A DNA stretch of 43,865 nt from Anaerolineales bacterium. Its GTDB lineage: Bacteria > Chloroflexota > Anaerolineae > Anaerolineales > Villigracilaceae. A program made the position numbers and the translations under genes. Numbering within the stretch: the stretch's first letter is position 1; every line of letters starts with the position of its first letter. The stretch spans positions 1-43,865 of the forward strand of contig JABFSL010000070.1 of NCBI GenBank assembly GCA_013140605.1, read 5' to 3'. The notes under the pieces were generated by a model. That model saw only the letters and a list, made by a program, of their open reading frames with translations. It was not told the DNA's origin and made no database searches. This document shows positions 11,639 through 43,865 of the stretch, piece after piece.

Positions 11639-11639
11639 A

Positions 11640-14949: not shown

Positions 14950-14955
14950 AGATTT

Positions 14956-16113: not shown

Positions 16114-16117
16114 ATAT

Positions 16118-16263
16118 GTCGTTGCGAGGACGTTCCTGTACTTTGTCCGACACTTGCGCCGCACTGCGTTCCCTGGCACCGCCCGCCAGGGCAGGTGTGT
16201 TGCAGTGCAGGCGAGCAATCTCTGATAACAGGGGATTGCTTCGCGAAGTGCGCTCGCAACGAC
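16118..16263. repeat. Dispersed palindromic element, copy 2
   Basis: A 146-bp element bounded by GTCGTTGCGAG (16118-16128) and its exact complement CTCGCAACGAC (16253-16263). It contains GCGAGCAATC...GATTGCTTCGC (16211-16244), the same core as copy 1 at 11521, plus an inner CCCTGGC/GCCAGGG stem. It sits between two convergent genes. Confidence 0.7.
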
Positions 16264-16278
16264 ATTGCTCATTTCTTT

Positions 16279-22560: not shown

Positions 22561-22590
22561 TTGACACGCCTTTCCGGCGTGGCGTATAAT
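22561..22590 (+). promoter_or_regulatory. Consensus tRNA promoter with palindromic spacer
   Basis: TTGACA (22561-22566) and TATAAT (22585-22590) are both perfect, with an 18-nt spacer. The spacer region holds the inverted repeat CACGCC (22565-22570) / GGCGTG (22576-22581). Transcription would begin about 10 nt before the tRNA. Confidence 0.8.
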
Positions 22591-22606
22591 CCTTTTATCC
22601 ATATAC

Positions 22607-22678
22607 GCGGGTGTAGTTCAGTGGTAGAACGCTTGCTTCCCAAGCAAGATATCGTGGGTTCGAGTCCCATCACCCGCT
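22607..22678 (+). tRNA. tRNA-Gly (CCC anticodon)
   Basis: The acceptor arms GCGGGTG (22607-22613) and CACCCGC (22671-22677) pair. The anticodon arm is CTTGC-TTCCCAA-GCAAG with anticodon CCC, and the T arm contains GGTTCGAGTCC. The 3' CCA is not encoded (TCAA follows). Confidence 0.95.
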
Positions 22679-22686
22679 CAAATCTA

Positions 22687-22790: not shown

Positions 22791-23180
22791 ATGATGCCAG
22801 AGCCTGAAAAAGGTAATATCTTGTATGTGGAAGATAATCCGGATAATAGAAGCTTGATACGCAGAGTGTTGAACGCGGAAGGGTATTCGGTTATTGAGGC
22901 TATTAATGCAGGGCAGGCGATGGAAAAACTCGAGACTGGCCTCGTTGATTTAATATTAATGGATATCAATATGCCAGATATGGACGGCTATACATTGACA
23001 TCCAAGATCAAGGCGATTCAAAAGTTTTCGAAAATACCCATTATTGCGGTAACCGCAAACGTTATGCGCGGTGATCGTGAAAAATCACTTGAGGCAGGCT
23101 GCGATGGGTATATTCAAAAGCCGATCGATATTGATACGCTCGCCCAGCAGATCGAAAGATTTATTCCAAGGAGTAATTAA
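22791..23180 (+). CDS. Stand-alone receiver (CheY/DivK-like response regulator)
   Basis: A 129-residue single REC domain with no output domain. The acidic pair is E14-D15, the phosphoacceptor D58 (LILMDINMP), with the conserved Thr (AVTAN) and Lys (QKP) near the end. Such proteins pass phosphoryl groups on or act by binding a partner. GGAG nine bases upstream supports the ATG at 22791; a frame running back to 22743 has no ribosome binding site. It is the first gene of the sensor array, and its stop overlaps the next start by one base (TAATG). No clear promoter was found after the tRNA terminator. Confidence 0.9.
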   Translation: MMPEPEKGNILYVEDNPDNRSLIRRVLNAEGYSVIEAINAGQAMEKLETGLVDLILMDINMPDMDGYTLTSKIKAIQKFSKIPIIAVTANVMRGDREKSLEAGCDGYIQKPIDIDTLAQQIERFIPRSN

Positions 23181-23632
23181 TGTCCAACGAAACACCCGCT
23201 GTTTCTGATACGCAACCCATTCGCAAACCTAATATCCCAAACGATGCAGCAGTATTGGTTGTTGAAGATAATGTGTCCAATTTTGTATTGATCGCGCGCA
23301 TGCTTGGGTATTTGGGAATCCATTGCGAGTGGAAAACTTCGGGCTACGAGGTTGTCGAATATGCGGACACCCTTCCACGCCTTGATCTGATCCTTATGGA
23401 TATTCGCCTTCCATATGAGGATGGCTATGGCGCGCTGAAGAAAATCCGCGCTTCAGAGCGATTTAAAGCGGTGCCGATTATTGCCGTAACAGCCGAAGCC
23501 AGCCTTGAGCAAATGAAGAAAGCGAAAGATTCGGGGTTTGACGGTTTTTTGGGCAAGCCGCTTGACCCAGACCGCTTCCCCGACCAGATACGCCGCATTT
23601 TGGGTGGAGAACCAGTCTGGGAATATAGTTAA
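23180..23632 (+). CDS. Second stand-alone receiver
   Basis: A 150-residue single REC domain after a 20-residue leader. Acidic pair E29-D30, phosphoacceptor D74 (LILMDIRLP), Thr in AVTAE and Lys in GKPLDP. It has no DNA-binding or enzymatic part. AAGGAG precedes the ATG, which overlaps the stop of the first receiver. It resembles its neighbour in fold but is clearly diverged, so the two probably have different partners or serve as successive relay steps. Confidence 0.9.
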   Translation: MSNETPAVSDTQPIRKPNIPNDAAVLVVEDNVSNFVLIARMLGYLGIHCEWKTSGYEVVEYADTLPRLDLILMDIRLPYEDGYGALKKIRASERFKAVPIIAVTAEASLEQMKKAKDSGFDGFLGKPLDPDRFPDQIRRILGGEPVWEYS

Positions 23633-23639
23633 CCTTTCG

Positions 23640-26600
23640 ATGACACCGATTCCAGTGACGCCCAGCCTTGAACCCAAACAAAAAAGATTTAAGGGCAGTC
23701 TGACAGGTACGCTTGTAAGCTGGCTCCTTATCTTTACTTTCATTCCCCTTGCCATAATGGCGGGGGCTGCTTACCTTCGCGCGCGCTCTCTTTTACGGGA
23801 ACAGGTGGCCACACAATCACAGAATCTATTAACCAATCAACTCAAAATAATTGAGCGGGAAATTAAACAAAAAGAAAGCCTGCTGGCGCACCAGGTTGAA
23901 AACGATGATTTTAGGGTTCTGGTTGAGCTTGGGTTACACGCGAATCCAATCAGTGATCAGTTTCGCAACATCCAAAATAATTTCATCAAGGAATTCCAAA
24001 AAATAAACCAACAGGAAGGCACGCCTGTATTTGATCAATTCTTTTTACTGGACACAAAGGGAAACATCAAACTCGCCAGTAACGCAGACTGGCAGGGAAA
24101 ATCATTGGATTTGGATATTCTAAATCCGACATCAGAAGAATATCATTCGATCGCTCTCTACGGAATCGCGCCAATTTACGAGAATCAATTTATTCTTGTT
24201 ACCAGGCTGGATTACAAAACTGCGAGCGGTGATTCCGTGCTTGGGTCGCTTGTAGGGGTTACAGAAAAAAACAATCTGCAAGAGCTTATTCAACCGCTTA
24301 ACGGCATATCTCCACTCGCAAGCACTTATTTCCTTCTTTCAACCGATCAGTTCGTATACAGCGACCCAAATACGCAGGAATTCTCACTTGTCAATTCCTC
24401 TTCTCAAAATGAACTGGCATCCAAACTGACCGAGTTAATGAATGCGCAGGACCCAAAGCCTGAATCGCTGGATATTACAGCGCCAAACGGCGAAGCTGTG
24501 CTGGCCCAACTTCAATGGTTCCCAACAATACAGGCTGGAATTGTTCTTGAAGTGAACGCGACTGATATTTACGGTCAAATAGCAAGCCTCGCACCATTTA
24601 CCATCATCCTTGTTTTGGGAACATTAACCGCTACTGGTCTCGTGTTAAGTCTCGGCATTAACCGAATTATCAAACCGCTGCGATCGTTATCAGAGATCAC
24701 CCGCAAGTTTGCCGAGGGTGATTGGAATCAACGAGCAGAGGTTTTGAGTGATGATGAAGTAGGCCTGCTTGCCAATTCATTCAACAACATGGCAGACGAT
24801 CTAGGCGGTACCTATCGCTCACTGGAAGAAAAGGTGGATGAACGCACACGGCAGATCCGCACTGCGGCCGAGGTTGCCCAAAACATCACCACCATTTCTG
24901 ACCTTGATGAGATGCTCGATAAAACAGTGGAATTGCTCGTCCAACAGTTTGATTTTTATCAGGCAAGTATTTTCCTGATGGATCGAGGCGGAAAATATAT
25001 CGAGTTCAAGACAGGATTCGGCACAGCTACAAAAGGTTTGGCTGACAAGAAATACCGACTGGAAGTTGGTTCAGCATCCATTATTGGGTGGGTCAGCGCA
25101 AATAACCAACCGCGTATCGCAACTGATGTTTTAGTGGATCCGCTCCACCTAAAGAATGAACTGCTTTCGGAAACCCGCTCCGAAGCCTGTGTTCCAATTT
25201 CAATTGGGAATTTGGTACTGGGCGTATTGGATGTGCAAAGCGCAAAAGCAGGAACATTCACCGGGTCTGAAACTCTCGTCATGCTGAGAACTTTGGCAAG
25301 TCAGATTGCGGCATCAATTCAAACGATCGGATTGGTGGAAACAAGCCACGTCAATTTTGAAGAACTGGAACGCCTCTACCGCTCGAGTCGCTTGATCGCA
25401 AAAGCGAATAGCGAATCAGAAATATTAAAAATAAGCGGGGAAATTCTGGAGCAAGCCCCCTACCCTGTTGTTGTTTTTCGAATAGCAGACAATCAATTGA
25501 ACATAGCCTCGTCGGCCGATTCGACAAGAGGGTTATCCACCATCCCCAGCCTGCCAAAAAGCATCAGTGTAAACATCGAAGACCTGAATAGTTTTCTGCT
25601 TCGCGGCCCCATAATCACAGTTGCCAACAATCCGGATACTCCCGCGGTGTTCAATGAACTTGTTCAAAAAGTTGAACTGGACAGCATAGCATTTCTTCCA
25701 ATAAGAAAACTAGACGAGTTGACAGCAATTATCATGATCGGATCGAGGAAACAAACCATTACCAGCGCGTCGATCCAACCGTATGTTAATTTCGCAGATT
25801 TGATGTCAATTACAATGGAAAAAACAGATGCGATCCAGCAAACAGAGCGACACCTGCGCGAAGTGGAATCGCTGGCATCCATTAACGAATTGATCTCCGC
25901 GACATCAGACCTGCAAAGTTTTTTTCAAGCGCTGCTCATCAAAATCCATCAAATCATCGGCAAGTTCAACATGACCGTTGCGCTTTATGACGAAAAAAAT
26001 AATACCATCAGCATTCCCTTTAGCTATGAAGATGAGCAGGTCAGATCAATTGAATCCTTTCCGCTTGGAGAAGGGCTGACATCTGTTTTACTGAACACAA
26101 AACAACCGTTGATGCTTGTGGAGGATGTGGAACGTAAAGCCATTGAACTTGGGGCAAAGGTATCTGGAAAAACTCCGCGCTCCTGGATGGGCGCGCCCAT
26201 GTTCGTGCAAAACAAGCCCATTGGCGCATTGATCATTCAAGACACTGAAAACGAACACGCCTTTGATAAATCGGACTTAAAGTTTTTCACAACCATTGCC
26301 GGTCAAGTAGCGGGAGTAATCCACAATGTGCGCCTCCTGGATGAAAGTCAGCGAAAAGCGCTTCAATTGGAAACAGCGGCTGAAATTGCACGCGATATTA
26401 GCGGCTCGCTCAACCTTGACGAGTTATTGATCAAATCAGTTAATTTTATTCGCGAACGCTTTGAGTTTTATCATGCCGCAATTTTTTTGCGTGACCTGTC
26501 GGGAGAGTTCGCCATCATTCGAGAAGCCACCGGCGAAGCCGGTGCGCAGATGAAACGCTCCGGGTATAAAATAGGAATCGGCTCAAAATCAATTGTCGGT

Positions 26601-27524
26601 TTTGTGAGCGGCCGGGGCGAACAGCTTGTAGTCAATGATACAGCCAAAGACGCGACCTATTACGCCAATCCACTGCTCCCAGATACACGAGCCGAAGCGG
26701 CCATTCCACTAAAAGTTGGCGAACGCATTCTTGGCGCCCTGGATATTCAAAGCACCACGCCCTATGCTTTTTCTGATGACAACCTGCGAAGTTTGCAGAT
26801 CCTGGCTGACCAACTGGCTGTCGCCGTGGTCAATACGGAACTCTTTGCCGAGACTCAGGAACATCTTTCCCAGCACAGACTTTTGCACCATATTACAACA
26901 ACTGCCGCGTCTGGAACCACACTTGAAGAAGCCTTGGAAAGCGCGGTAAATGGATTGCAAGTTACACTTGGCGGTGACCGTGTTACCATCCTTTTGGCAG
27001 ATCGCGATAAAAAGATGTTGGATGTAAAAGCATCCATGGGATATGCTGAAGATATTACAACAGTACAGGTTCCCATAGGAAGCGGAATTACAGGCTGGGT
27101 CGCCGCACACAGGCGGTCACTGCGCGTGCCAAACGTAAACGAAGATCCGCGCTATATTCAAATTAGCTCAAACACACGATCCGAGCTGGCAATCCCTCTT
27201 ATTTACCGCAATGAATTACTTGGCGTCCTGAATGTTGAAAGCGAACAATTTGATGCCTATACTGAGAACGATGAAGAAATGCTGGGCACGCTAGGAGGAA
27301 GTTTAGCGGCCATTATTGCGAATGCGCGTTTGTTGGAACAGCTCCGCATGCAGGCTGAACGTGAGCGTGTAGTTTATGAAGTAACCAGCAATATCCGCCG
27401 ATCAACCGACATACAATCCATTTTGATGACCACAGCCAGTGAGCTGGCAAGAGTCACCGGCGCGCGTTATGCAAAAATACAGGTTAAGCCTTTAAGCGAC
27501 GCCGAACAGGAAGATGAACAATGA
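23640..27524 (+). CDS. Receptor 1: dCache-like sensor, HAMP, about five GAF domains
   Basis: A 1294-residue membrane sensor, by far the largest of the array. TM1 is about 21-47, an outside dCache-like domain about 48-310, TM2 about 317-340 and HAMP about 341-395. A coiled coil ending DERTRQI leads to GAF domains at about 415-575, 590-745 (degenerate), 760-930, 940-1090 and 1100-1240, then the array's common half-GAF tail. I see no histidine-kinase H, N or G boxes and no cyclase or GGDEF motif. The start at 23640 has no good ribosome binding site, and reinitiation after the receiver stop eight bases before is plausible. An earlier start inside the receiver gene is possible. Its stop overlaps the next start (ATGA). 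Confidence 0.88.
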   Translation: MTPIPVTPSLEPKQKRFKGSLTGTLVSWLLIFTFIPLAIMAGAAYLRARSLLREQVATQSQNLLTNQLKIIEREIKQKESLLAHQVENDDFRVLVELGLHANPISDQFRNIQNNFIKEFQKINQQEGTPVFDQFFLLDTKGNIKLASNADWQGKSLDLDILNPTSEEYHSIALYGIAPIYENQFILVTRLDYKTASGDSVLGSLVGVTEKNNLQELIQPLNGISPLASTYFLLSTDQFVYSDPNTQEFSLVNSSSQNELASKLTELMNAQDPKPESLDITAPNGEAVLAQLQWFPTIQAGIVLEVNATDIYGQIASLAPFTIILVLGTLTATGLVLSLGINRIIKPLRSLSEITRKFAEGDWNQRAEVLSDDEVGLLANSFNNMADDLGGTYRSLEEKVDERTRQIRTAAEVAQNITTISDLDEMLDKTVELLVQQFDFYQASIFLMDRGGKYIEFKTGFGTATKGLADKKYRLEVGSASIIGWVSANNQPRIATDVLVDPLHLKNELLSETRSEACVPISIGNLVLGVLDVQSAKAGTFTGSETLVMLRTLASQIAASIQTIGLVETSHVNFEELERLYRSSRLIAKANSESEILKISGEILEQAPYPVVVFRIADNQLNIASSADSTRGLSTIPSLPKSISVNIEDLNSFLLRGPIITVANNPDTPAVFNELVQKVELDSIAFLPIRKLDELTAIIMIGSRKQTITSASIQPYVNFADLMSITMEKTDAIQQTERHLREVESLASINELISATSDLQSFFQALLIKIHQIIGKFNMTVALYDEKNNTISIPFSYEDEQVRSIESFPLGEGLTSVLLNTKQPLMLVEDVERKAIELGAKVSGKTPRSWMGAPMFVQNKPIGALIIQDTENEHAFDKSDLKFFTTIAGQVAGVIHNVRLLDESQRKALQLETAAEIARDISGSLNLDELLIKSVNFIRERFEFYHAAIFLRDLSGEFAIIREATGEAGAQMKRSGYKIGIGSKSIVGFVSGRGEQLVVNDTAKDATYYANPLLPDTRAEAAIPLKVGERILGALDIQSTTPYAFSDDNLRSLQILADQLAVAVVNTELFAETQEHLSQHRLLHHITTTAASGTTLEEALESAVNGLQVTLGGDRVTILLADRDKKMLDVKASMGYAEDITTVQVPIGSGITGWVAAHRRSLRVPNVNEDPRYIQISSNTRSELAIPLIYRNELLGVLNVESEQFDAYTENDEEMLGTLGGSLAAIIANARLLEQLRMQAERERVVYEVTSNIRRSTDIQSILMTTASELARVTGARYAKIQVKPLSDAEQEDEQ

Positions 27525-29116
27525 CGGAAAGTGATCTTTCCAAAGAACAGCCAATAAATCCAGTTGAAACGACACGCCAATTTTACAAGAACTGGCGTGA
27601 ACGGTTTGCTGTTCCCCTATTGGTCGGTGTGTTGATATTGGGAAGTGTCGCGTTGATTCCCGCGCTTAATGGTTCAGCCAGCCCGATCATTGATACGATC
27701 TTTATTACAGTTTACATAATCACCGGAATAGTTACTGTCATCCGCTTTCCATACACGGTTCGAATGAGCGTATTTCTGCTTAGCATTTATGTGCTTGGGA
27801 TTAGCGAACTAATTACACATGGAATTCTGGGCGACAGTCTATTCTTCTTCCTCAGCCTGATCATTTTTTCCACCATACTAATATCCCCGCGAATAGGAAT
27901 TGCAGCGTTAATTGTAGATATACTAACCTTTGCAATATTTGGATGGTTAATGTTAAGCGGCCAAATCATTCCACTTAATCCCAACGCACCTCCTGCGGAC
28001 CTCAATGATTGGATAAGCGCAGGGGTGGCAATGGCCATGTTCGGGTCGGTAATTATTATTGGCTTTCAACGCCTGGAAAAAGAATTCTTTGACGCGCAAA
28101 AACAGATCGACTCAACTTTGAATGCTCTCAGAGACGAACGCAATAATCTGGAAAATAAAGTTCTTGAACGTACCGTCCAGCTTGGAAAAGTCAACAAAAT
28201 TGGCCGCGTGGTTACCGCCATTCTTGACCCAGACGATCTCCTCAAACAGGCGGCGCAATTAATTGAATCTGAGTTCGATTGCTATTACACAGCCTTCTTC
28301 CTGCTCGACGTGACAGAGCAATGGGCAGATCTGAAAGAAGGAACCGGAGAAGCTGGCAGAATCCTGCGGGAGAACAGGCATCGCCTCGATATAAATGGAA
28401 AAGCAGCGATCAGTATCGCCATACGCACAAAACAGGCCTACATCGTACAGGAAGCTGGAACAAAATCCTTCCGCCCTGATAATCCTCTTTTACCGTATTC
28501 CCGTTCACAGATCGCGCTTCCCCTCATTGTCGGCAAGTCCATCCTCGGCGCTTTGGAAATGCACTCAACAAAAATAAACGCTTTCGTTCAGCAGGATGTG
28601 GAAACATACCAGAACATGGCCAATGAAATTGCCATTTCACTTGAAAACTCGCGCTTATTCCTGAACGCGCAGCAAAGCCTGTCTGAAATGCGCGCGACGC
28701 AGAGGCAATATCTACAGGGAGCATGGCAATCGCTGACCGCTCACCGCAATCTGGATTATGCACTTGGCGATAACGATCTGGCGAATAGCATGGGAATTGA
28801 AATTCCACTAGTACTAAGAGATCAGGTTATTGGTCAGATCCATCTTGAAAATTCCACAGAGTGGACACCTGAGCAAAAAGACCTGATTGAATCCATTACA
28901 GCACAAGCCACTTTGGCGTTGGAAAATGCCCGCCTCGTCGAGGAAAGTCAATCTGTTGCGGCGCGCGAAAAGCTGGCGAACGAACTCATCACCAAAATCT
29001 GGGCATCGACAAATATGGACAGCATCCTGCAAACCACCGTCCGTGAATTGGGACGCTCACTGGAAGCTTCAGAAGTAGTGATCGAAGTTTCAATGAATGA
29101 AGAAGAAAATGAATAA
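27521..29116 (+). CDS. Receptor 2: 6-TM input plus two GAF domains
   Basis: A 531-residue membrane protein. Six hydrophobic helices (about 30-200) form an integral-membrane input of MASE-like type with very short outside loops, so it may sense something in the membrane. A coiled coil (about 205-235, ending LERTVQL) enters a GAF domain (about 245-390), then a degenerate second GAF (about 400-485) and the common tail (about 487-525). The first GAF has PDNPLLPYSRSQIALPL, a weaker form of the motif in receptors 4-9. No output domain. Start codon overlaps the stop of receptor 1. Confidence 0.87.
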   Translation: MTESDLSKEQPINPVETTRQFYKNWRERFAVPLLVGVLILGSVALIPALNGSASPIIDTIFITVYIITGIVTVIRFPYTVRMSVFLLSIYVLGISELITHGILGDSLFFFLSLIIFSTILISPRIGIAALIVDILTFAIFGWLMLSGQIIPLNPNAPPADLNDWISAGVAMAMFGSVIIIGFQRLEKEFFDAQKQIDSTLNALRDERNNLENKVLERTVQLGKVNKIGRVVTAILDPDDLLKQAAQLIESEFDCYYTAFFLLDVTEQWADLKEGTGEAGRILRENRHRLDINGKAAISIAIRTKQAYIVQEAGTKSFRPDNPLLPYSRSQIALPLIVGKSILGALEMHSTKINAFVQQDVETYQNMANEIAISLENSRLFLNAQQSLSEMRATQRQYLQGAWQSLTAHRNLDYALGDNDLANSMGIEIPLVLRDQVIGQIHLENSTEWTPEQKDLIESITAQATLALENARLVEESQSVAAREKLANELITKIWASTNMDSILQTTVRELGRSLEASEVVIEVSMNEEENE

Positions 29117-30794
29117 CAACTTCCCCTTCTCGAACTCAAGCAGGCAGAAAGATATTGAGCCGACAGTTTTTGATTATAAGAGCTGGCGCAGCGGATTTAT
29201 TTTAATCATTCTGCGCCTCGCCTGCGTGTTGGGTATTGGCTTGCTGGTCTTCTCGTTACCAAATGCAACATCAAGTGACCGCATTTTATTTTTTAGTCTT
29301 TATTCAGTTTTGTTGTTGGTCACTCTCCTGCCAGTACCCTATTTTGCACGCGCATCCATTTTACTGGTTATGATCTACGCCATCGGCACAAACTCAATCT
29401 TGGCCTGGGGGCCCTGGCTGGATGGAAGTGTCTTCTTTATAGCGTTTATCTTGTTAGCCGCCCTGTTGTTTGATCAGCGTGTTGATGTTTTTGCCCTGCT
29501 GTTAAGCATTCTTACATTTTCAGTCGTGGGAATTTTACAGCAACAGGGAATATATAAATTCAGCGCACCAAATGTACCTGCCACAGCGCCTTTGGATTGG
29601 GTGGCCTACACGGTGGATTTCTCCATTCTCTCTGCAATTTTGATTATTGCAATTGCCCGATTTAAAGAGGAGTTCGCCCGAGTTGTCAACCAAATGCAAA
29701 ACGCATTCCAGGCACTCATTGTTGAACGTACCCAGCTGGAAGACAAGGTTCGCGAACGCACCGAAGAGTTGGAAGCAAAAACAAATCAGCTGCGAGCGTC
29801 GACTAATATCGCCAGAAATGTCGCTGAGATCCAGGATATTTCCATATTGCTGGAAACTGTGACAAAACTGATTTCTGAAAAATTCGAATACTATCATGTT
29901 GGGCTATACATTTTAGATGACCAGAAAAAGACTGCATTCCTACAGTCCGCCTCGTCAGAAACAGGCAAACAGCTTATCGGTCAGGGGTTCCGCGTGGAAT
30001 CAGACCGACGAAACGCCATCAACAAAGTCATCGAAAAGAATGGCGCATATATTACATCCGACACCGAAGATCCAAATTTTATTCGCGATATAAATTTTCC
30101 GATCACTCGTTCAAGAATGCTGCTGCCTCTCACAGTTCGCGGTAATGTGCTCGGAGTGCTGGATATGCACTCGGATCAAACAAAGGCATTCGATGGGCAG
30201 GATGCAGAGATCCTGCAAACACTCTCCGACCTGGTTGCTATTTCTTTTGATAACGTCCGTTTGATCAATGAAACAAAGAGTCTTGTCAGTCAGTTGGAAA
30301 TTAATACATCCTTCCAGGCGCGCAGAACGTGGTCAAAACTCACGACCCGCCAAAAACCAGCTTATCAATACACTCCCGCCGGTGTACGCCCTCTCTTTTC
30401 TGTTGACAGTGATGATGTAACAGAAGGACTGCGCGTGCCGCTCATCTTATATGGTCAGACCATCGGTACGATAAAACTAAAAAGAAAAGGCGGGATCGCA
30501 GAATGGTCGGACCGTGAGCGGGTTTTGGTTGAGAAAATTGCCGATCAGGTGGCGCTCGCCCTTGAAAACAGCCGACTTGTAGATGAAGCTCAAAAAAGCG
30601 CACTGCGCGACCAAATGATCGCAAATATTTCCTCCCGTGTTCGCGAAACTCTGGACGTGGAATCAGTCATCCGCACCGCCACCACCGAATTGCGAAGAGT
30701 GTTTGATCTGAAAGAAGCAGAGATCAATATTGGCTCCCCTCAAACCGAAGCCGCACCAGCAAGAAAAAATACGAGTTCACTTCGGTTGAAGTGA
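29097..30794 (+). CDS. Receptor 3: 6-TM input plus two GAF domains
   Basis: A 565-residue relative of receptor 2: six membrane helices (about 30-195), a coiled coil ending RERTEEL, a GAF domain (about 240-395), a degenerate GAF and the common tail (about 500-545). The GAF region that is ALDVG..AVYFNNPDLP in later receptors reads DPNFIRDINFP here, so its ligand pocket must differ. It overlaps receptor 2 by 20 nt; an ATG at 29109 would cut the overlap to 8 nt and is equally likely. A gap of 119 nt follows, the largest in the array. Confidence 0.86.
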   Translation: MKKKMNNNFPFSNSSRQKDIEPTVFDYKSWRSGFILIILRLACVLGIGLLVFSLPNATSSDRILFFSLYSVLLLVTLLPVPYFARASILLVMIYAIGTNSILAWGPWLDGSVFFIAFILLAALLFDQRVDVFALLLSILTFSVVGILQQQGIYKFSAPNVPATAPLDWVAYTVDFSILSAILIIAIARFKEEFARVVNQMQNAFQALIVERTQLEDKVRERTEELEAKTNQLRASTNIARNVAEIQDISILLETVTKLISEKFEYYHVGLYILDDQKKTAFLQSASSETGKQLIGQGFRVESDRRNAINKVIEKNGAYITSDTEDPNFIRDINFPITRSRMLLPLTVRGNVLGVLDMHSDQTKAFDGQDAEILQTLSDLVAISFDNVRLINETKSLVSQLEINTSFQARRTWSKLTTRQKPAYQYTPAGVRPLFSVDSDDVTEGLRVPLILYGQTIGTIKLKRKGGIAEWSDRERVLVEKIADQVALALENSRLVDEAQKSALRDQMIANISSRVRETLDVESVIRTATTELRRVFDLKEAEINIGSPQTEAAPARKNTSSLRLK

Positions 30795-30913
30795 AAATTA
30801 ATTATTATCATAAGGAAAAAACCTTGCAAAGAAAATGGACGATAATGGAAGTTGAAGCAATCTTGATTCGATCTGTGCCAGAGCGAATCATTTCGCACTA
30901 AGAGGTAATTGAA
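30795..30913 (+). other. Largest internal gap of the sensor array
   Basis: The 119 nt hold a small inverted repeat, GATTCG (30864-30869) / CGAATC (30883-30888), and an AGAGG ribosome binding site before receptor 4. No consensus promoter stands out. It may split the array into two transcription units. Confidence 0.4.
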
Positions 30914-33295: not shown

Positions 33296-33297
33296 AA

Positions 33298-35046: not shown

Positions 35047-35054
35047 AGGTTGAC

Positions 35055-37364
35055 ATGAGTCAGACAAGATCAGAACCAAGACTAACCATTATAGACAGAA
35101 TAAATAACGCCATCTCGCTCCAAACGCGACTGGTGTTATCCTTGTTGTTCATTGCTCTGGTTCCTCTCATTGCGGTCTCCACACGTAATATTAATCAAAC
35201 CCAGCAGGCGTTAACCAATGGCGCTGAAATCTCGCTAAGAGCAAGCGCACTACAGACCGCCAACAGCCTGGATACCTTTATTGAAGAAACTCTAATTTCA
35301 CTCCAGATCGAAGCGCAATTTTCCGACTTTTCTGCTTATTTAACGCTGCCTTCCTCTGAGCGGCCCGGAAGTGTGGAACAGTCCAAAGCTCGCGATCTTC
35401 TCAAACAACTAAGCGGAAAAGATACAGTCAACATTATCTCCTATGCGCTCGTAGACGCTGACGGAAGAGTACTGCTGGATACGGTCAAGGAAAATATTCA
35501 AAAAAACGAATCGGGAGAATCGTATTTCTCGCAGGTGCGATTCTCTGAAAAGCCGATCGTCACAGATGTAACATATTCCGACAAAACAACAACCGTTATT
35601 CATTTTGCCGGCAAAGTATTAAGCGCTGACGGCGAATATGCCGGGGTCCTGCGGGTGAAATACAAATCAGCCATCCTGCAATCGGTGATCACTGAAAGCG
35701 TAGGTACATCCTCCAACACCTCTGTTGTACTTCTGGATCAGCTCAATATCCGCATGGCAGATACTCAAAACCCCGGCCTTATTCTGAAGTCAATCGTTCC
35801 TCTTGATTTTCCCAGTTACCTGCTTGCTGTGGATACCAAGCGCTTTCTGGATATTCCCCGCGAGGAGCAAACCACCAACTATATCGATTTTGATGTGGCT
35901 CTTGAAACTGCGGTGGAAAAACCATTTTTCCGAGCTGAAATTTCCCCGAACACCCCAGGCGATGATAGTATCGCGATAGCGTTTTTGAAAACGCAGCCCT
36001 GGATTATCGCCTACAGTCGTCCAACCTCAATTTTTCTGGCTGATGTTCAAAGGCAAATTAATACGAATATTCTCTTTGTGATTGGCACATCAATTATCGT
36101 GGCTATTATTGCCACATTGATCGCAAGGGCGCTAACAAATCCGATCATCGCTCTCGCTAAGGTCTCCAATTTAATTTCGCAAGGCGATTTTAACGCCCGC
36201 GCCCAGGTGAAAACTACAGACGAAATTGGGTCGCTGGCATCAGCATTCAACTCGATGACAGATCAACTCCAATCCACACTGCAGGGATTGGAACAACGCA
36301 TTCAAGAACGCACCGCCGACCTGCAAAAGAATACTGTGCAACTGGAGACCATTGCTGATGTGGCCCGTGAGATCGCCATTATTCGAAACATGGACACACT
36401 TCTCAATGTTTCCGTAAACCTGATTCAGGAGAGATTGAAATATTATCATGTTGGTATTTTCCTCGTGGATGAGCGTAATGAATATGCGGTTTTGCAGGCC
36501 GCCAGCAGTATTGCCGCGGAAAAAATGCTGGAAAATAAATATAAATTAAAAGTAGGTCAAACAGGGCAGGTCGGCAATGTGACCAAAACAGGACAGGCAT
36601 ATATTGCACTGGACGTTGGAAAAGATGCCATCCATTTTGAAAATCCGTATCTGCCTGAAACACGGTCCGAGATCACACTGCCATTGCGGAGTCATAGCCT
36701 CATAATCGGAGCATTGGATATTCAGGCAAACATTCCCAACGCATTTGGCGAGCGCGATATTCAAACCCTGCAAATTCTTGCCGACCAGTTATCTGCCGCG
36801 ATTGAAAACGCCCAGCTGGCCCAGCAAGTTGAAGGGACATTAGGTGAGTTGACCAGGTCAAACCGCCTGCAAACGCAAAGCGCGTGGCAGTCCGCCATCG
36901 GCCAAAGGGAATATCCAGCTTATGAATACAATGGCCTGCAAGTGGTATCCATACCCAACGATCTTCCGCCTGAATTGTTAAAGCTATTGGAAAGTGGAAA
37001 ACCCATTGTCATTGACCAGGGTGAAGGCAAGGTTAAAAATTCATTGCTGATTCCATTGATGCTGCTCAATCAGGTAATTGGCGTGATTGGACTGGAACAG
37101 GAAGACCCAAATCATACATGGACGAATGAAGAGATCGCTGTGGCACAAGCCGCCGCAAACCGCGCCGCCCTCACATTGGAAAACGCCCGCCTGCTCGAAG
37201 AATCGCAAAGGCGCGCCGCGCGCGAACAGGCCATCGGTCAGATCTCCGCAAAGATCGGCGCGGGAACTGAAATTGAGATGATCTTAAAAACCGCCATCAG
37301 AGAGTTGGGCGCTCAAATTGGCGGAACCCAGATCACGGTCGAGATTGGTAACGAGAATGAATGA
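35055..37364 (+). CDS. Receptor 6: dCache, HAMP and two GAF domains
   Basis: A 769-residue receptor. TM1 is about 17-40, the outside dCache-like domain about 41-330, TM2 about 334-358 and HAMP about 359-412. A coiled coil ending QERTADL leads to GAF 1 (about 435-590) with IALDVGKDAIHFENPYLP, a degenerate GAF 2 and the common tail. The outside domain has the 'G.VLLDT' and 'VTYSDKTTTVIHFAGKV' strands of double-Cache folds. AAAGG lies before the ATG, eight bases after receptor 5. Confidence 0.89.
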   Translation: MSQTRSEPRLTIIDRINNAISLQTRLVLSLLFIALVPLIAVSTRNINQTQQALTNGAEISLRASALQTANSLDTFIEETLISLQIEAQFSDFSAYLTLPSSERPGSVEQSKARDLLKQLSGKDTVNIISYALVDADGRVLLDTVKENIQKNESGESYFSQVRFSEKPIVTDVTYSDKTTTVIHFAGKVLSADGEYAGVLRVKYKSAILQSVITESVGTSSNTSVVLLDQLNIRMADTQNPGLILKSIVPLDFPSYLLAVDTKRFLDIPREEQTTNYIDFDVALETAVEKPFFRAEISPNTPGDDSIAIAFLKTQPWIIAYSRPTSIFLADVQRQINTNILFVIGTSIIVAIIATLIARALTNPIIALAKVSNLISQGDFNARAQVKTTDEIGSLASAFNSMTDQLQSTLQGLEQRIQERTADLQKNTVQLETIADVAREIAIIRNMDTLLNVSVNLIQERLKYYHVGIFLVDERNEYAVLQAASSIAAEKMLENKYKLKVGQTGQVGNVTKTGQAYIALDVGKDAIHFENPYLPETRSEITLPLRSHSLIIGALDIQANIPNAFGERDIQTLQILADQLSAAIENAQLAQQVEGTLGELTRSNRLQTQSAWQSAIGQREYPAYEYNGLQVVSIPNDLPPELLKLLESGKPIVIDQGEGKVKNSLLIPLMLLNQVIGVIGLEQEDPNHTWTNEEIAVAQAAANRAALTLENARLLEESQRRAAREQAIGQISAKIGAGTEIEMILKTAIRELGAQIGGTQITVEIGNENE

Positions 37365-37386
37365 TCTCACAGGTCAGGGAGCAGGA

Positions 37387-38697
37387 ATGTCAAAAAGCAA
37401 CAATAAAAGCGTCTCTCCTAATCGTGCGCTGATCATACTGATCCTTTCGATTTTCTTCGTCGAAGTATCCATTATGGTAGTCTTTCTTGTACTGCCTCCG
37501 CTCCCGCCAGTTATAGAGACCTTGGTCGATGCAACAGGATTGATCCTGCTCGTTTCTCCCATTGTTTATCGCTTTGCCATCCTTCCGCTTCACGAACAGA
37601 TGGCAAAAACAACCAACGCCGTTGATCAATTGGAAACTTTAAACCTTGAACTTGAAAAGCGCGTATCTGATCGCACACAGGAACTTGAAAAAGCCAATGA
37701 AGGAAACATTCGTCGCACCGCACAATTCGAATCCATTGCCCGCATAGCTCGTATTATCAGCTCCACCCAAACGATGGAAGAGCTGCTTTTACAGATCACA
37801 GAGGCCATTTCAGAGAAATTTGGTTTTTACCATGTTGGCGTTTTTCTTTTGGATGGCAGCAGGGAATACGCTGTGCTCGTTGCCGCGAACAGTGCGGGCG
37901 GACAAAGAATGCTCGAGAGGAATCATCGCCTGCCCATTGGCGGAACAAGCATCGTGGGATTTGTGACCGATTACGGGCAGCCACGCGTCGCTCTGGACGT
38001 GGGGCTGGATGCGGTTTACTTCAACAATCCCGACCTCCCTGAAACCCATTCTGAGATCGCCCTTCCTCTTCGCGTTGGCGCCAATGTGTTTGGCGCATTG
38101 GATGTGCAAAGTGTGGAAACAAACGCCTTCGCGCAGGAAGATATAACCATCCTTTCCACACTTGCAGATCAAGTCGGTATTGCCATCCAAAACGCGCGGT
38201 CATATCAGCAATCCAGTGAAGCGCTCGCGCAAGCAGAAGCCGCCTCACGGCAAATGGGTGAACAACAGTGGCAGCAGTTCCTGGTCAGAAGGCCCGTGGA
38301 AGGATACTACTTTGACGGCATAGAGGCAAAGGCAATAGGCCCGCATGACAGGCAACGGAATCATGGCTTAACCATTCCGCTCACATTGCGAGGCACACAC
38401 ATTGGCACGATCAAGCTGAGTGCGCCAGACCCAAATCGCACATGGACAGAAGATGAGATCGCCATCGCGCAGGCAACAGCAGAGCGAACATCTCTGGCGC
38501 TTGAGAGCGCGCGCCTGCTTCAGGAAGCGCAAAAACGAGCCGCAAAGGAACGTACGATAGGTCAGATATCTGCAAAGATAGGCAGCTTGGTTAATCTTGA
38601 AAACATCGTTCAAACCGCCATCCAAGAATTGGGCAGCACACTGCCAGGCACGGAAGTTGCCATTCAATTCACACCCGACGACTCACCCAAGAAATAA
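37387..38697 (+). CDS. Receptor 7: short two-helix input plus two GAF domains
   Basis: The smallest receptor, 436 residues. Two hydrophobic helices (about 12-35 and 40-65) replace the large input domains; no outside sensor is present. A coiled coil (KRVSDRTQELEKA) leads to GAF 1 with RVALDVGLDAVYFNNPDLP, a degenerate GAF 2 and the common tail. AGGGAG (37376-37381) five bases before the ATG at 37387 decides the start; ATG 37357, overlapping receptor 6, has no ribosome binding site. With so little outside the membrane it could be an adaptor inside a mixed complex. Confidence 0.85.
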   Translation: MSKSNNKSVSPNRALIILILSIFFVEVSIMVVFLVLPPLPPVIETLVDATGLILLVSPIVYRFAILPLHEQMAKTTNAVDQLETLNLELEKRVSDRTQELEKANEGNIRRTAQFESIARIARIISSTQTMEELLLQITEAISEKFGFYHVGVFLLDGSREYAVLVAANSAGGQRMLERNHRLPIGGTSIVGFVTDYGQPRVALDVGLDAVYFNNPDLPETHSEIALPLRVGANVFGALDVQSVETNAFAQEDITILSTLADQVGIAIQNARSYQQSSEALAQAEAASRQMGEQQWQQFLVRRPVEGYYFDGIEAKAIGPHDRQRNHGLTIPLTLRGTHIGTIKLSAPDPNRTWTEDEIAIAQATAERTSLALESARLLQEAQKRAAKERTIGQISAKIGSLVNLENIVQTAIQELGSTLPGTEVAIQFTPDDSPKK

Positions 38698-38714
38698 GCA
38701 CCAGGAGACACAAT

Positions 38715-40442
38715 ATGCTTTCCAGGTTCCTGAATTATTTTAGAGACGAAGAAGATAAAAACCCGTCATTCATTCAAATGACAAGGAATATTCTTATACT
38801 TGTTATTCTTATTAATATTTTCCTGCTGCCTTTGGTGATGGGCTTATTTGGCGAAGAATCACGCAACCCACCAGCCTTGATCGCATTGAGTATTACCCTG
38901 GGTCTCGAAATCATCTCACTCTATTACGCAATTCGCGGCAAAGTGAGCATGGCAAAGTTGATCGTACCGCTGGCGCTCATCACAGCGGTCGCGATCATTG
39001 CAGTCAATACAAATGGCCTGCGGGATATTTCCATTGTCGGCCTTCCACTTGTTCTTGTAATTGCGGCACTACTGCTGGGCAAACGCGCAATTTGGACTGT
39101 TGCGCCAATTGCCGTTATTACCGCTCTTGTAATCGCAATTATGGATCTAAGGACAGGCAGGACCGCCACAAAAGTTGGAGTTGACGATGCGATTATTATC
39201 ATCGTTCTACTTGTTGGATGCTCCGCAATTATTCAAGCGTTGATCAACCGCCTGAATGAAAACATTAATAAATTACAGAAAAATGAAAAGATCCAGTTGG
39301 AGGAAAATCGCGAACTAAACGAATTGCGGCAGTCTCTTGAGGAGCGTGTAAACCAGCGCACAGCGGAGTTGGACACCGCAAACCAATTCAACCTGCGCCG
39401 CGCGCGACAATTTGAGGCCATCTCTCAAGTGGTAAAAACGATCTCATCCATTCAAGATCTGGATACGCTTATGCCGCGAATTACCCAAGTGATCAGTGAA
39501 CAATTTAATACCTATCACACTGGAATATTCCTGCTGGATAATGAACGGGAGTTTGCCGTGCTTCGGGCCGCAAATAGCACGGGCGGGCAAAAAATGCTGG
39601 AACGAGGACACAAGCTGCAGGTCGGACAGACCGGTATCGTCGGCTTTGTCACAGCTACAGGGCGGGCACGCATCGCACTGGACGTTGGAGCTGATGCGGC
39701 TTACTTTGACAATCCCGACCTTCCAGATACCCGCTCAGAAATCGCACTGCCGCTTCGTTATTCCGGGCAGATCATCGGCGCACTCGACGTGCAAAGCATG
39801 GATGCGAATGCCTTTGGCCAGGATGATGTTGAAGCGTTGATCACACTCGCCGATCAGGTGGCCGTTACCATAAACAACACGCTTATCCTTGAAGAAGCGC
39901 GTAAATCGCTTACTGAATCACAAAGCGCATTCGGAAATTTTACGCGTGAGTCCTGGAAGATCATGCAGCCAAAATCTTTGGGGTTGGGTTTTCAATTAAA
40001 AGAGTCGGTCATCACCCCCCTTGACCAGCCTCTCACTGGAAAGCATATTCAAGAAGCTGTCACACGCGGCACTCCGGTTATATCAGACAAGGATAGCGGA
40101 GGCTCAAATCTTACGATTCCAATCCGCTTGCGCGGAAGAACCATTGGCATCATAAACCTGCGCACAACCAACCAGAAATTGACAAGTGACGATGCGGATA
40201 TTGCTGAATCCGTAACGGAACGTCTCTCACTTGCCATCGAAACAGCTCTGCTGATCCAGACTACGCAACATCGCGCAGATGTGGAACGAATCACATCCGA
40301 TATTTCATCCAGAATCAACTCATCCACACGGTTTGAAACCATTTTACAAACCGCCGCACAGGAACTCAGCCGCGCACTTGGCGGCTCCGATGTGCTTGTA
40401 CAGATCGAGCCGGCATCCATTGAATTGGGCATGGCAGGATAA
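38715..40442 (+). CDS. Receptor 8: 6-TM input plus two GAF domains
   Basis: A 575-residue receptor with six membrane helices (about 20-180), a coiled coil (EERVNQRTAEL), GAF 1 (about 235-390) containing RIALDVGADAAYFDNPDLP, a degenerate GAF 2 and the common tail (INSSTRFETILQTAAQEL). AGGAGA precedes ATG. It is followed 16 nt later by the substrate-binding lipoprotein, so both are very likely made together. Confidence 0.88.
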   Translation: MLSRFLNYFRDEEDKNPSFIQMTRNILILVILINIFLLPLVMGLFGEESRNPPALIALSITLGLEIISLYYAIRGKVSMAKLIVPLALITAVAIIAVNTNGLRDISIVGLPLVLVIAALLLGKRAIWTVAPIAVITALVIAIMDLRTGRTATKVGVDDAIIIIVLLVGCSAIIQALINRLNENINKLQKNEKIQLEENRELNELRQSLEERVNQRTAELDTANQFNLRRARQFEAISQVVKTISSIQDLDTLMPRITQVISEQFNTYHTGIFLLDNEREFAVLRAANSTGGQKMLERGHKLQVGQTGIVGFVTATGRARIALDVGADAAYFDNPDLPDTRSEIALPLRYSGQIIGALDVQSMDANAFGQDDVEALITLADQVAVTINNTLILEEARKSLTESQSAFGNFTRESWKIMQPKSLGLGFQLKESVITPLDQPLTGKHIQEAVTRGTPVISDKDSGGSNLTIPIRLRGRTIGIINLRTTNQKLTSDDADIAESVTERLSLAIETALLIQTTQHRADVERITSDISSRINSSTRFETILQTAAQELSRALGGSDVLVQIEPASIELGMAG

Positions 40443-40458
40443 AACATAGGCATCCACG

Positions 40459-41427
40459 ATGAACAGAAAACTTTTCTTAAAAGCCATTCTTTTGGCAGCG
40501 ATTGCCAACTCTCTTGTGGCCTGTACGATACTACGAACAGAAGAACCCGTCAGGTCTCCCCTGCGTGTGGAATATGCACAATGGTGGGGCGACTACACAC
40601 TTCTGGTCGCACAGGAGAAGGGCCTGTTTGAAAAATATGGCGTGGAAGTGGAGCCTGTTTATTACGAAATTTTTTCTAAAACATATCCGGATCTGGCTTC
40701 AGGGCAAATTGACGGCGCACTGATAGCCATTGGAGACACCATTAACATCAATCGTAACGCCCTCATGAAAGTAGTGGCAGTCTACGACAACGGTGGCAAT
40801 GATGCTGTTCTTGTTGGCCCGGAAATTAATTCCATACAGGATTTAAGAGGAAAAACAATCGGCTTGCAGATGGGCTCACAATATGAGTTAACTGTTGTCA
40901 AAATGTTACAAAGCGCAAACATGGGTATTGGCGATGTTACTATTGTTGCCATAAACCCTGAAGAGGCATTGGCAGCCCTTGAAGGCGGTCAAGTTCAAGC
41001 GGCCTCCACCTGGGAGCCATATTCGTCTGAGGCGCTTTCAAATGGCTACAAAATCATTTATCCGCAAGAACAACTTTACCTGTTTCCAGACCTGATCGTA
41101 TTTCGAAAATCGATCGTGGATGAAAGACCTGAGGATGTTCAAGCGTTCCTAAAAGCATGGTTTGAAGCGGTGGAATATCGCCTGCAAAACCCGGAAGAAA
41201 CACGAGCCATTGCCGCCAAGTATCTTGGTCTAAGCGTTGAAGAAGTGCAGCCTGACGACAATCTGGCCATCCTTACCCTTGAAGATAATAAAACGTTATT
41301 CGATGTACAGCAGAAAAATTCCATTTACTCCACCACAAGAGTCACTTCGGATTATTTGATTTCAATTGGAGCGTTAGCGCAACAAATAGACCTGCTCGAA
41401 TTGATCGATCCAGATTATCTTCCTTAG
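40459..41427 (+). CDS. NMT1/THI5-type substrate-binding lipoprotein
   Basis: A 322-residue solute-binding protein. The signal peptide ends in the lipobox LVAC with Cys22 to be lipid-anchored. The mature part begins with LRVEYAQWWGDYTLLVAQEK, continues with GLFEKYGVEVE and has LRGKTIGLQMGS, all typical of the family that binds nitrate, sulphonates, taurine or thiamine precursors. The ligand cannot be told. No ABC permease or ATPase gene is adjacent: receptor genes lie on both sides. It may therefore present its ligand to a receptor rather than to a transporter. The ribosome binding site is weak. Confidence 0.85.
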   Translation: MNRKLFLKAILLAAIANSLVACTILRTEEPVRSPLRVEYAQWWGDYTLLVAQEKGLFEKYGVEVEPVYYEIFSKTYPDLASGQIDGALIAIGDTININRNALMKVVAVYDNGGNDAVLVGPEINSIQDLRGKTIGLQMGSQYELTVVKMLQSANMGIGDVTIVAINPEEALAALEGGQVQAASTWEPYSSEALSNGYKIIYPQEQLYLFPDLIVFRKSIVDERPEDVQAFLKAWFEAVEYRLQNPEETRAIAAKYLGLSVEEVQPDDNLAILTLEDNKTLFDVQQKNSIYSTTRVTSDYLISIGALAQQIDLLELIDPDYLP

Positions 41428-41456
41428 CAACTACAATATCTGACAAGAGAGTTTTT

Positions 41457-43865
41457 ATGAACAACCCGTCCAATCAACCCATACAAGAAGAACGCCGTCG
41501 AAGGAATATCCTGACGATCAGTCTGATCACAGGGATTATATTCACAGTCGTTGCGGCGATCTCCGGGTATGTTGGGTATTCTGACAACGGCATCAAAGGA
41601 TTATTTGGCCTTGGGATCACAGGCGCGGTGGCGATTGCTGCTTTTATCAGCACGTATCGAAGCCGTCAGGGTCGTCCATATCAGGGAATTGCAATTTTAA
41701 TTGGGACTATATTCGTACTGGGGCTTACGATCCCATTTATAGTACATGGACAGGGTCTGGCGCTTGGGTTGATGGTTGGAATTGTTGTCGCCGGAATTTC
41801 GTCTGCCACACTGCCGCCCACATGGGCAACACGGGCAATCATCGGTGGTTTTATTATTACCACTATTATTACAGCCACCGATCTGTTCCTGCCAGATTTG
41901 GGGTTACCCACCAATCCCGCCACAACAAACTCGATCGCTGTTGTCACATCGCTCTTGTACGTTTTCTTCATCCTCAGACGGTTTAACTCCTACGCACTTC
42001 GAACAAAAATTATTATTGCCTTCATCCTTGTGACCATCATCCCCCTGATTGCGCTTGGTTTTTTTAACACCAGATCCTCTTCTCAATCTCTCCAAAACCA
42101 AAATAAGGCTCAACTAACAACACTCGCACATGTTGTCGCAGACACCGTTGACGGTTTTATTATTAATCAACTTGATTCCATACGGGCCGATTCAAAACAA
42201 TTGGCGTTGAGTTCCTATTTGGATCTACCATCGCGATCACGCGCCAATAGCACAGAAGAAAACAATGCCCGCCTTGTACTGCTCGCCCTAACACGCAAAG
42301 ACCCCGTTTTTATTCACTCCATTGGAATACTGGATAAAAACGGGGTAAATATCCTTGACACGCTCGATGAACACAACGGCCAAAACGAGGGGACCCAAAC
42401 GTATTTCAAGCGACCATTCCAAAATGGTCTTCCATATGCGTCGAATGTTGTTTTTCATGATGATACAGATATCTACTTTAGCTCACCCATTTTTAGTCAA
42501 AACGGCACCATTGTCGGCGTTTTGCGGGTCGAGTACTACACAACAGTTATCCAATCCATTGTTCGATCCATAGATACTGGAAATTCCGGTACGATCATCT
42601 TGCTGGCAGATTCAAAAACGTATTTACGAGTAGGCTACACCGGCAATCGCGATGAATTATTAAAGTCATTCAAAAATTTCAATGATTTGGAATTAAGCGT
42701 TATGCAATTGGAGGAACGTCTGCCCCCAGGGTCAAGAGATATTGCCGTGGAAGGCGCAAATGACATAATGGTTGAAGGTATTGATAATTTACAACAACAA
42801 TCGTTTTTTGAAGCCTTTTCAGATTCGCTCGGTTCCAACACCATCAATACCGGGGCGTTCCTTAAAACACAACCATGGGTTGCAATCATACGTCAATCCA
42901 CAAATTTATATTTGAAGCCGGTTTCAGAACAAAACAGAACGAATATTTTGATCTCAATGGCGCTGATCGTTCTTAGCGTTGGGGCTGGTTTTTTCGCCTC
43001 ACAAATTTTGACATCCCCGCTTGTTTCGCTTTCCAAAGTGGCCGAAAAAATCGCAACCGGCGATCTGACCGCCCGCGCAAACGCAACTTCAGAGGACGAG
43101 ATCGGCACGCTCTCGACATCCTTCAACCGCATGACGGAAGAACTGTATCAAACCGTAAACAGTCTGGAACTACGCGTAGTGGAACGCACAACAGATCTTG
43201 AAGTGGCTCGCCAACAAAGCGAAAAGCGAGCCAATGAACTTCAATCAATCGGTGAAATCTCAAAAATCATTGCCAGCGAACAAAAGCTTATAACACTGCT
43301 CCCATTAATTACGCGGCTTGTCAGTGAAAACTTTGGCTTCTATCACACTGGAATTTTTCTGATCAATGAGACAAAGCAATTCGCCGTGCTGCAAGCCGCA
43401 AATAGTGAAGGCGGGAAGGTCATGCTGGCGCGCGAACATAAACTCGAAGTTGGCGCGACCGGTATTGTGGGCTACGTCGCTAAATTTGGAACCCCCCGCA
43501 TCGCGCTGGACGTTGGGCTGGATGCTGTTTACTTCAACAATCCCGACCTGCCAAATACACGCTCCGAAATGGCCCTGCCTCTCAAAGTTCACGATGAAAC
43601 CATTGGCATACTTGATGTACAAAGCGAAAGACCCGGCGCCTTCAACGACAATAATGTAAAAACGCTCAGCATTCTGGCAGACCAGATATCCATTGCAATC
43701 GAAAACGCGCGACTGTTTACGCAGACCCAGCAAGCGTTGATGGAAGCCCAGTCCCTTTATCGCCAAAATTTACAGGACAGCTGGCTGACTTTCAGCCGCG
43801 ATGAAACTTCGATTGGATATCAGCAAAGCCTCAGCGGCGGCAGGAAATTAACCGCGCCAATAGAC
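41457..43865 (+). CDS. Receptor 9 (cut by window end): membrane domain, dCache, HAMP and GAF
   Basis: The frame stays open for 803 codons to the last base, so the gene continues outside. It starts MNNPSNQPIQEE and has about six membrane helices in residues 20-180. A further helix (about 184-205) leads to an outside dCache-like domain, a second membrane helix (about 495-515) and a HAMP domain. A coiled coil (LRVVERTTDLEVA) enters GAF 1 with RIALDVGLDAVYFNNPDLP, and the degenerate GAF 2 has just begun at the window end. It thus joins both input types of the array in one chain. The output end is unknown and is the natural place to look for a kinase. Confidence 0.85.
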   Translation, partial: MNNPSNQPIQEERRRRNILTISLITGIIFTVVAAISGYVGYSDNGIKGLFGLGITGAVAIAAFISTYRSRQGRPYQGIAILIGTIFVLGLTIPFIVHGQGLALGLMVGIVVAGISSATLPPTWATRAIIGGFIITTIITATDLFLPDLGLPTNPATTNSIAVVTSLLYVFFILRRFNSYALRTKIIIAFILVTIIPLIALGFFNTRSSSQSLQNQNKAQLTTLAHVVADTVDGFIINQLDSIRADSKQLALSSYLDLPSRSRANSTEENNARLVLLALTRKDPVFIHSIGILDKNGVNILDTLDEHNGQNEGTQTYFKRPFQNGLPYASNVVFHDDTDIYFSSPIFSQNGTIVGVLRVEYYTTVIQSIVRSIDTGNSGTIILLADSKTYLRVGYTGNRDELLKSFKNFNDLELSVMQLEERLPPGSRDIAVEGANDIMVEGIDNLQQQSFFEAFSDSLGSNTINTGAFLKTQPWVAIIRQSTNLYLKPVSEQNRTNILISMALIVLSVGAGFFASQILTSPLVSLSKVAEKIATGDLTARANATSEDEIGTLSTSFNRMTEELYQTVNSLELRVVERTTDLEVARQQSEKRANELQSIGEISKIIASEQKLITLLPLITRLVSENFGFYHTGIFLINETKQFAVLQAANSEGGKVMLAREHKLEVGATGIVGYVAKFGTPRIALDVGLDAVYFNNPDLPNTRSEMALPLKVHDETIGILDVQSERPGAFNDNNVKTLSILADQISIAIENARLFTQTQQALMEAQSLYRQNLQDSWLTFSRDETSIGYQQSLSGGRKLTAPID

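Follow-up and report, generated by a model that had tools for sequence, protein, structure and literature searches.

The window analysed here, a stretch of 43,865 nucleotides (nt) that makes up the entire contig JABFSL010000070.1 of an Anaerolineales bacterium, encodes on its forward strand an array of membrane receptors with GAF domains, which begins with two stand-alone receivers and runs into the end of the contig. Both receivers, described as single-domain proteins in an initial annotation of this DNA, are confirmed by PF00072 matches: RR1 (22791..23180; E = 1.8e-30), whose orthologs open the array in relatives, and RR2 (23180..23632; 9.2e-21), which overlaps RR1 by 1 nt. The first receptor gene, R1 (23640..27524), encodes a HAMP domain, four GAF domains and a C-terminal tail that resembles part of a further GAF domain (27351-27491). 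R2 (27521..29116; tail 28955-29095) and R3 (29109..30794; tail 30597-30737) are multi-transmembrane (TM) receptors of the MASE11 type, R4 (30914..33295; tail 33074-33214) is a dCache/PDC receptor with a HAMP match slightly below the cut-off, R5 (33298..35046; tail 34870-35010) is another multi-TM receptor, R6 (35055..37364; tail 37212-37352) combines a weakly matching periplasmic sensor with HAMP, R7 (37357..38697; tail 38536-38676) has about two TM helices and R8 (38715..40442; tail 40272-40412) about six; in all seven proteins the tail is preceded by two GAF domains, GAF1 and GAF2. The domains were assigned with Pfam and the tails by alignment. The last gene, R9 (41457..43865), with multiple TM segments, a dCache-like match below the Pfam cut-off, HAMP, GAF1 and part of GAF2, is cut by the contig end at 43865; its ortholog in the relative G016 has 942 amino acids.

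Pfam thus bears out the count of nine GAF-bearing membrane receptors, but these are not strictly consecutive, because R8 and R9 are separated by a gene for an NMT1/SsuA-type substrate-binding protein (40459..41427, forward strand; Pfam NMT1 7e-22, TIGR01728 above cut-off; lipoprotein-like by eye). The initial annotation mentioned neither this gene nor the partial-GAF tails of the eight complete receptors. Orthologs of the binding protein occupy the same place of the array in some relatives only, and the protein may serve as a periplasmic ligand carrier for one of the receptors. The tight packing described earlier is real: neighbouring genes lie between -8 and +29 nt apart, with the single exception of the 119-nt gap between R3 and R4.

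With respect to output, neither the eight complete receptors, as previously claimed, nor the truncated R9 contain a HisKA, HATPase, GGDEF, EAL, cyclase, phosphatase or DNA-binding family above the Pfam cut-offs; the HisKA and HATPase profile search that had been proposed for each receptor likewise gave no match over cut-off. None of the 65 HATPase matches in the genome falls on the contig of the window. A kinase hidden inside one of the receptors can therefore be ruled out. The inference that the array is kinase-less and lacks an output did not survive comparison with relatives: it looked so because the contig ends inside R9, and where the array is uncut the gene set continues with a kinase, just downstream, as the initial annotation had allowed.

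The closest R8 (78% identity) is encoded in G016, where the gene order is RR1, RR2, R1-R8, the binding protein, R9, R10, a ParA-family ATPase, a soluble kinase, a threonine-synthase-like enzyme of the PALP type fused to a receiver (the enzyme-receiver fusion) and a transporter-like gene. The kinase comprises, in order, partial GAF, GAF, PAS, GAF, HisKA, HATPase and REC domains, and HisKA, HATPase and REC are present on one chain, above cut-offs, in the kinases of both relatives scanned. This plan recurs among members of the genus and of other families in the order; the same order is found in dozens of genomes, with the genes kept together rather than scattered as independent units. Both receivers and ParA lie on one stretch in 19 arrays, 11 from the genus and 8 from other families. 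The genus arrays carry 9-12 tail-bearing receptors each and those of other families 0-4 by an automatic count, which is too low in the case of G039, where none was counted and three receptors with tails are seen around ParA.

A set of 80 ParA loci, chosen by likeness to one ParA and hence favouring close relatives, provides a quantitative picture of the region downstream of the receptors. The records are mostly labelled Chloroflexi or Anaerolineales (an order within Chloroflexota), with L261 (3.4 kb) labelled Gammaproteobacteria and L205 Herpetosiphon. A tail-bearing receptor is encoded directly upstream of ParA in 76 of the 80 loci; among the other four, L200 has one about 2 kb away, L202 has broken frames, and L223 and L240 have none. 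Directly downstream of ParA, a gene with the characteristic N-terminal head of the array kinase (see below) is found in 73 loci by count, and in 75 of 80 once L231 and L243 are added by inspection; in a few of these loci the contig stops before the kinase domain. Besides L231 and L243, which in fact have the kinase, the five loci tallied as kinase-less include L259, with an opposite-strand gene call, and L223 and L240, which lack an array; two further loci end at ParA, and the kinases of L202, L214 and L237 are split into broken frames. The gene that follows the kinase (n = 73) is the enzyme fusion in 61 cases and the contig end in 8, L245 being tallied without the fusion although its locus map shows one. 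In 52 of the 66 cases measured, the start of the kinase gene overlaps the end of the ParA gene by 35 nt, which suggests coupled translation.

Beyond the genus, 13 of the 24 genomes examined in other families of the order have the array-type ParA, defined by a score of at least 216 bits. At E <= 1e-55 it is detected in 24 of 350 sampled genomes of the phylum; 23 of these belong to the order, and the remaining one to another part of the class. It is absent from the six sampled genomes of family f13 of the order; rarer or more distant forms may be missed at these thresholds. In our judgement, the receptors very probably feed the downstream kinase, and a mixed complex of receptors, as suggested in the initial annotation, is plausible.

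The potential link between the two lies at the receptor C-termini and the kinase N-terminus. The C-terminal tail of the eight complete receptors is about 47 residues long and resembles the beginning of a GAF domain; in profile-profile comparison it aligns to positions 1-42 of a 159-position GAF profile (E = 8.6e-5, probability 60%). The kinase begins with a Lys/Arg-rich peptide, followed by a variable Pro-rich linker and the C-terminal part of a GAF domain; this head matches positions 105-159 of the same profile (E = 1.5e-9, probability 96%). As judged from these profile matches, the receptor tail and the kinase head represent non-overlapping parts of one GAF fold, i.e., they show complementary truncation. 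In the genus, neither part supplies the middle of the fold, and a composite domain would accordingly be a reduced GAF. Comparison with the profile of receptor GAF2 extends this pattern: nine outgroup kinases match it only from positions between 24 and 73 onward (position 37 or beyond in seven cases), and by this alignment these nine kinases are likewise short of the GAF domain start. Three genus kinases compared in the same manner start at positions 83, 92 and 43, the last with the linker aligned; the G037 kinase gave no match, and the G054 kinase is cut at a contig start, so that its head cannot be judged.

Within the kinase, the share of the majority residue is high in the basic peptide (0.74) and the partial GAF (0.71) and lower in the linker (0.32) and in the domain after the head (0.39). 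Among 60 aligned kinases, the N-terminal consensus is MPKKPKIxKRLDKLF, with M1, K4, R10, L14 and F15 kept in all 60 and a median of six Lys and Arg residues in the first 14. For the tails, hidden Markov models were built, as for the head and the other parts, from the array genes themselves; in the fetched arrays, 323 of 325 tail matches lie no more than 53 residues from the C-terminus, with a median of 9. Moreover, among the four genomes checked, the tail is nearly confined to arrays of this type. At E <= 0.001, all matches fall within the array in the single-contig genomes G021 (10 of 10) and G026 (12 of 12); in the genome of the window, eight lie in the array described here and three in a second array discussed below; and in G104, a single cluster accounts for 11 of the 12. 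For the seven ortholog pairs shared by the window's genome and G016, identity is highest in the tail (0.83), followed by GAF1 (0.78), GAF2 (0.73), the sensor part (0.59) and the stretch past the tail (0.34), and for G022 (seven pairs) it is 0.83 in the tail versus 0.77 in GAF1. The corresponding values for G026 and G031 (five pairs each) are 0.72 and 0.68 in the tail versus 0.73 and 0.75 in GAF1.

We propose that these genes encode an array in which many receptors serve one kinase, that the connection is made by a split GAF domain and that ParA positions the assembly; to this reading we assign a probability of roughly 0.6. Under this proposal, each receptor would sense through its own membrane or periplasmic part, and the resulting change would travel down the helical spine of GAF1 and GAF2. 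Each receptor terminates in the N-terminal portion of one more GAF domain, comprising two helices and the first strand, and the single soluble hybrid kinase, encoded downstream in relatives, starts with the basic peptide, a flexible Pro-rich linker and the C-terminal GAF part, namely two strands and the last helix. The tail of any receptor could then dock onto the head to give one composite GAF domain, re-creating the usual GAF-to-GAF spine across two chains, such that every receptor could drive the same kinase. From there, phosphate would reach the receivers on the kinase itself as well as RR1 and RR2, and possibly also the receiver on the threonine-synthase-like enzyme. Coupling of receptor and kinase through the tail and the head appears fairly likely, and for coupling specifically by a composite GAF domain we see almost even chances, slightly tilted against. 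A direct prediction of the proposal is that docking would require the tail.

Several observations weigh against this proposal. The match of the tail to the GAF profile is weak, at a probability of 60%; no tail match was obtained in at least two outgroup receptors (G048 at 8189 and G060 at 22583), and no such head in a profile scan of the f6 kinase of G041. Tail identity exceeds that of GAF1 in only two of the four genome comparisons. The array-type ParA also stands without an array, at L223 and L240. The kinase of family f4 (G039) is fused to a receptor via a complete GAF3. Furthermore, the profile of the kinase head is not specific to the kinase but finds the C-terminal part of GAF2 in the receptors as well, so that the head could be a relic of gene fission or could pair side by side with GAF2. 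The latter option amounts to an alternative in which receptor and kinase run in parallel along a common spine, made up of the C-terminal part of GAF2, its last helix and the N-terminal part of GAF3, in the manner of GAF dimers and with no composite domain. Such pairing would agree with the extension of the receptor GAF2-plus-tail profile into the next GAF domain of the kinase, and with the f4 locus, where two other receptors keep their tails even though the kinase has a complete GAF3. However, it leaves unexplained both why nearly all tails end just past the first strand (323/325 matches) and why the domain start is missing in the nine outgroup kinases, and we regard it as unlikely.

Natural fusions of neighbouring receptors, found in two lineages (L189 with L190, and L194), provide a view of the two GAF parts in cis: in the proteins encoded at L189:6742-9990 and L194:7038-9983, a tail is followed by a GAF C-terminal part. 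In a model of the L189 fragment (mean predicted local confidence score, pLDDT, 76; predicted template modelling score, pTM, 0.46), the internal tail forms a strand, the C-terminal part then adds two more strands and a helix, and the free terminal tail has no strand. Residues 137-270 of the model, which cover both parts, align with solved structures (VIA comparison). DosP, whose title does not name GAF, occupies the top four rows (9cmf_A, Z 9.1, root-mean-square deviation (rmsd) 2.5, 95 aligned); rows naming a GAF domain, 20 of the 50 listed, include 5m85 (Z 8.1, rmsd 4.1, 112 of 159), 4fof (Z 8.1, 113 of 168) and 2qyb (Z 8.0, 100 of 151). Many other rows are phytochrome-like, cyanobacteriochrome or CodY chains, which we take to be GAF-bearing. 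The head of the kinase, modelled alone, consists of two strands and a long helix with a pLDDT of about 86-93; it resembles GAF pieces of 50-60 residues (e.g., 3ci6_A, 54 columns, rmsd 1.4), with no match to solved structures at E 0.001.

On the opposite side of the balance, at least three rows for the L189 model are unrelated coiled-coil machines (9cpb, 6xby, 7nyw), the pTM is the value of 0.46 given above and the Z values are rated middling by the comparison tool, and in the alignment used for modelling most rows fell on the second tail, leaving the internal tail nearly without relatives. Given this thin alignment and the middling Z values, the L189 model is supportive only, as is the GAF-like appearance in cis that it predicts for the tail fused to the receptor GAF C-terminal part. 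These fusions join two receptors and not a receptor and a kinase. Together with the presence of a related tail on every complete receptor of the window, this is what would be expected if the tails linked receptors to one another, in mixed clusters or by domain swapping, with the kinase reading these clusters elsewhere or sensing through its own GAF and PAS domains. We consider such a role quite improbable, since it is precisely the kinase head that holds the missing part of the fold, conserved nearly as well as the basic N-terminus, and since the gene after the receptors and ParA encodes such a head in 75/80 loci.

A further point on the negative side comes from the assembly of the window itself (G000; 96.2% complete, 132 contigs), in which the array's ParA, kinase and enzyme-receiver fusion are not found: a search for the rest of the array across it yielded a ParA of only 36% identity at best, and a best kinase and a best enzyme-receiver fusion of 43% and 47% identity, both on contig C82. 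The presence of these three genes in the species of the window is, for this reason, assumed. The same gap in an assembly that is 96% complete might be taken to mean that in this species the array truly lacks a kinase and any output of its own. We hold this to be very improbable: the contig stops inside R9, and relatives with an uncut array have ParA, the kinase and the enzyme fusion after the last receptor.

Among candidate continuations in the assembly, HATPase matches near the starts of contigs C34 and C88 were checked, and neither continues the array. The C82 genes were ruled out as the missing pieces, being parts of a second, smaller array with its own kinase. This array (locus L177, ~3838-16645) encodes three receptors with weak tail matches, a kinase, a receiver and a threonine-synthase-like gene.

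Returning to the proposed many-receptor array and the role of ParA in it, the ATPase matches AAA_31 (1.2e-50) and CbiA (1.7e-19), both above cut-off, and no NCBIfam equivalog model for ParA or MinD at its cut-off. According to one report, activators of ParA/MinD ATPases have in common short, positively charged N-terminal extensions, and such an extension is carried by TlpT, the suggested activator of PpfA (PMC7993993); PpfA is itself a ParA homologue, described in another report as involved in positioning the chemoreceptor cluster of Rhodobacter sphaeroides (PMC6829392). As in the systems that pair ParA/MinD with activator peptides (ParB, MinE, PomX and, by suggestion, TlpT and McdB), there is a basic, Lys/Arg-rich N-terminus here, on the protein encoded directly after, and overlapping, ParA; the difference is that the putative activator would be a histidine kinase. 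By this analogy, the kinase N-terminus is a lead for a ParA activator: ParA would respond to it as it does to ParB-type activators, with the result that receptor clusters would be spread or positioned in the cell. That ParA positions the assembly seems to us somewhat more probable than the contrary, and activation of ParA by the kinase N-terminus is a direct prediction. In combination, these elements might constitute a new class of sensory array, with up to a dozen receptors sharing a soluble kinase through a split GAF domain completed in trans, and with ParA, driven by the N-terminal peptide of the kinase, spacing or partitioning the assembly; this full version is advanced tentatively, as being somewhat below even odds.

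In most two-component systems, the sensor and the kinase are on one chain, and the chemoreceptor array is the best-known case of many receptors sharing a kinase. Chemoreceptor arrays (MCP-CheW-CheA, including ParA-positioned ones such as TlpT/PpfA of R. sphaeroides) resemble the present system in that a kinase gene is accompanied by many receptors with varied inputs, by stand-alone receivers and by a ParA homologue. They differ in that here there is no MCP signalling domain and no CheA-type kinase but an ordinary HisKA hybrid kinase, with the coupling by GAF parts as proposed above. The MCP signalling domain PF00015 is absent from R1-R9 and from R9 and R10 of G016, and the two array kinases scanned have no CheW-like or Hpt family, their architecture being HisKA-HATPase-REC with GAF and PAS. 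Furthermore, PF00015 has no match in 33 of 41 genus genomes, including that of the window, so that for most sampled members the array is no accessory of chemotaxis. Hybrid histidine kinases with GAF or PAS input share HisKA, HATPase and REC with the downstream kinase, but here the membrane inputs reside on about ten separate proteins and the first GAF domain of the kinase is truncated. The GacS/RetS/LadS multikinase networks of Pseudomonas also have several membrane sensors per kinase, as we propose for the array; their inputs, however, are kinases, whereas the receptors here have no kinase domain. In the stressosome (RsbR/RsbS/RsbT), paralogous sensors pool their signals on one kinase; the receptors considered here differ in being membrane GAF proteins, and no STAS domain occurs among the Pfam matches of R1-R9 at E <= 0.1. 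A literature search at the level of titles and abstracts, with subscription journals mostly outside its range, returned no description of such an array, of a split GAF domain or of a threonine-synthase-receiver fusion.

If the proposal is correct, bacteria that for the most part have no chemoreceptors would possess in this array a GAF-based equivalent of the chemoreceptor array, and with it a second, unrelated solution to the problem of sharing a kinase, in which signal integration evolved by domain splitting. Should the split work as envisaged, it could also offer an exchangeable receptor-kinase plug for engineering.

The gene next to the kinase hints at a metabolic output. In G016 it encodes a threonine-synthase-like PALP enzyme with a C-terminal receiver (L098:13272-14924), which adjoins the kinase in many genomes of the order. 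The enzyme belongs to the PALP family above cut-off, and NCBIfam threonine-synthase models match it below their cut-offs; the fusion is possibly a metabolic output under phosphorylation control. Just past the array in the same genome, on the opposite strand (L098:15963-20000), are an OmpR-like regulator and two more histidine kinases, a group that is kept in many relatives.

Several other features of these loci deserve mention. At L240 (8668-10795), the ParA gene comes after a polyprenyl-synthase-like gene that resembles one flanking the array of the window. Directly upstream of the array, at 22561-22679, the window contains a tRNA-Gly (ccc) gene preceded by a perfect TTGACA-18-TATAAT promoter. 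Elsewhere in the window (6086-8554), inspection by eye reveals a small GIY-YIG-like gene between two tyrosine-recombinase-like genes, perhaps a mobile element.

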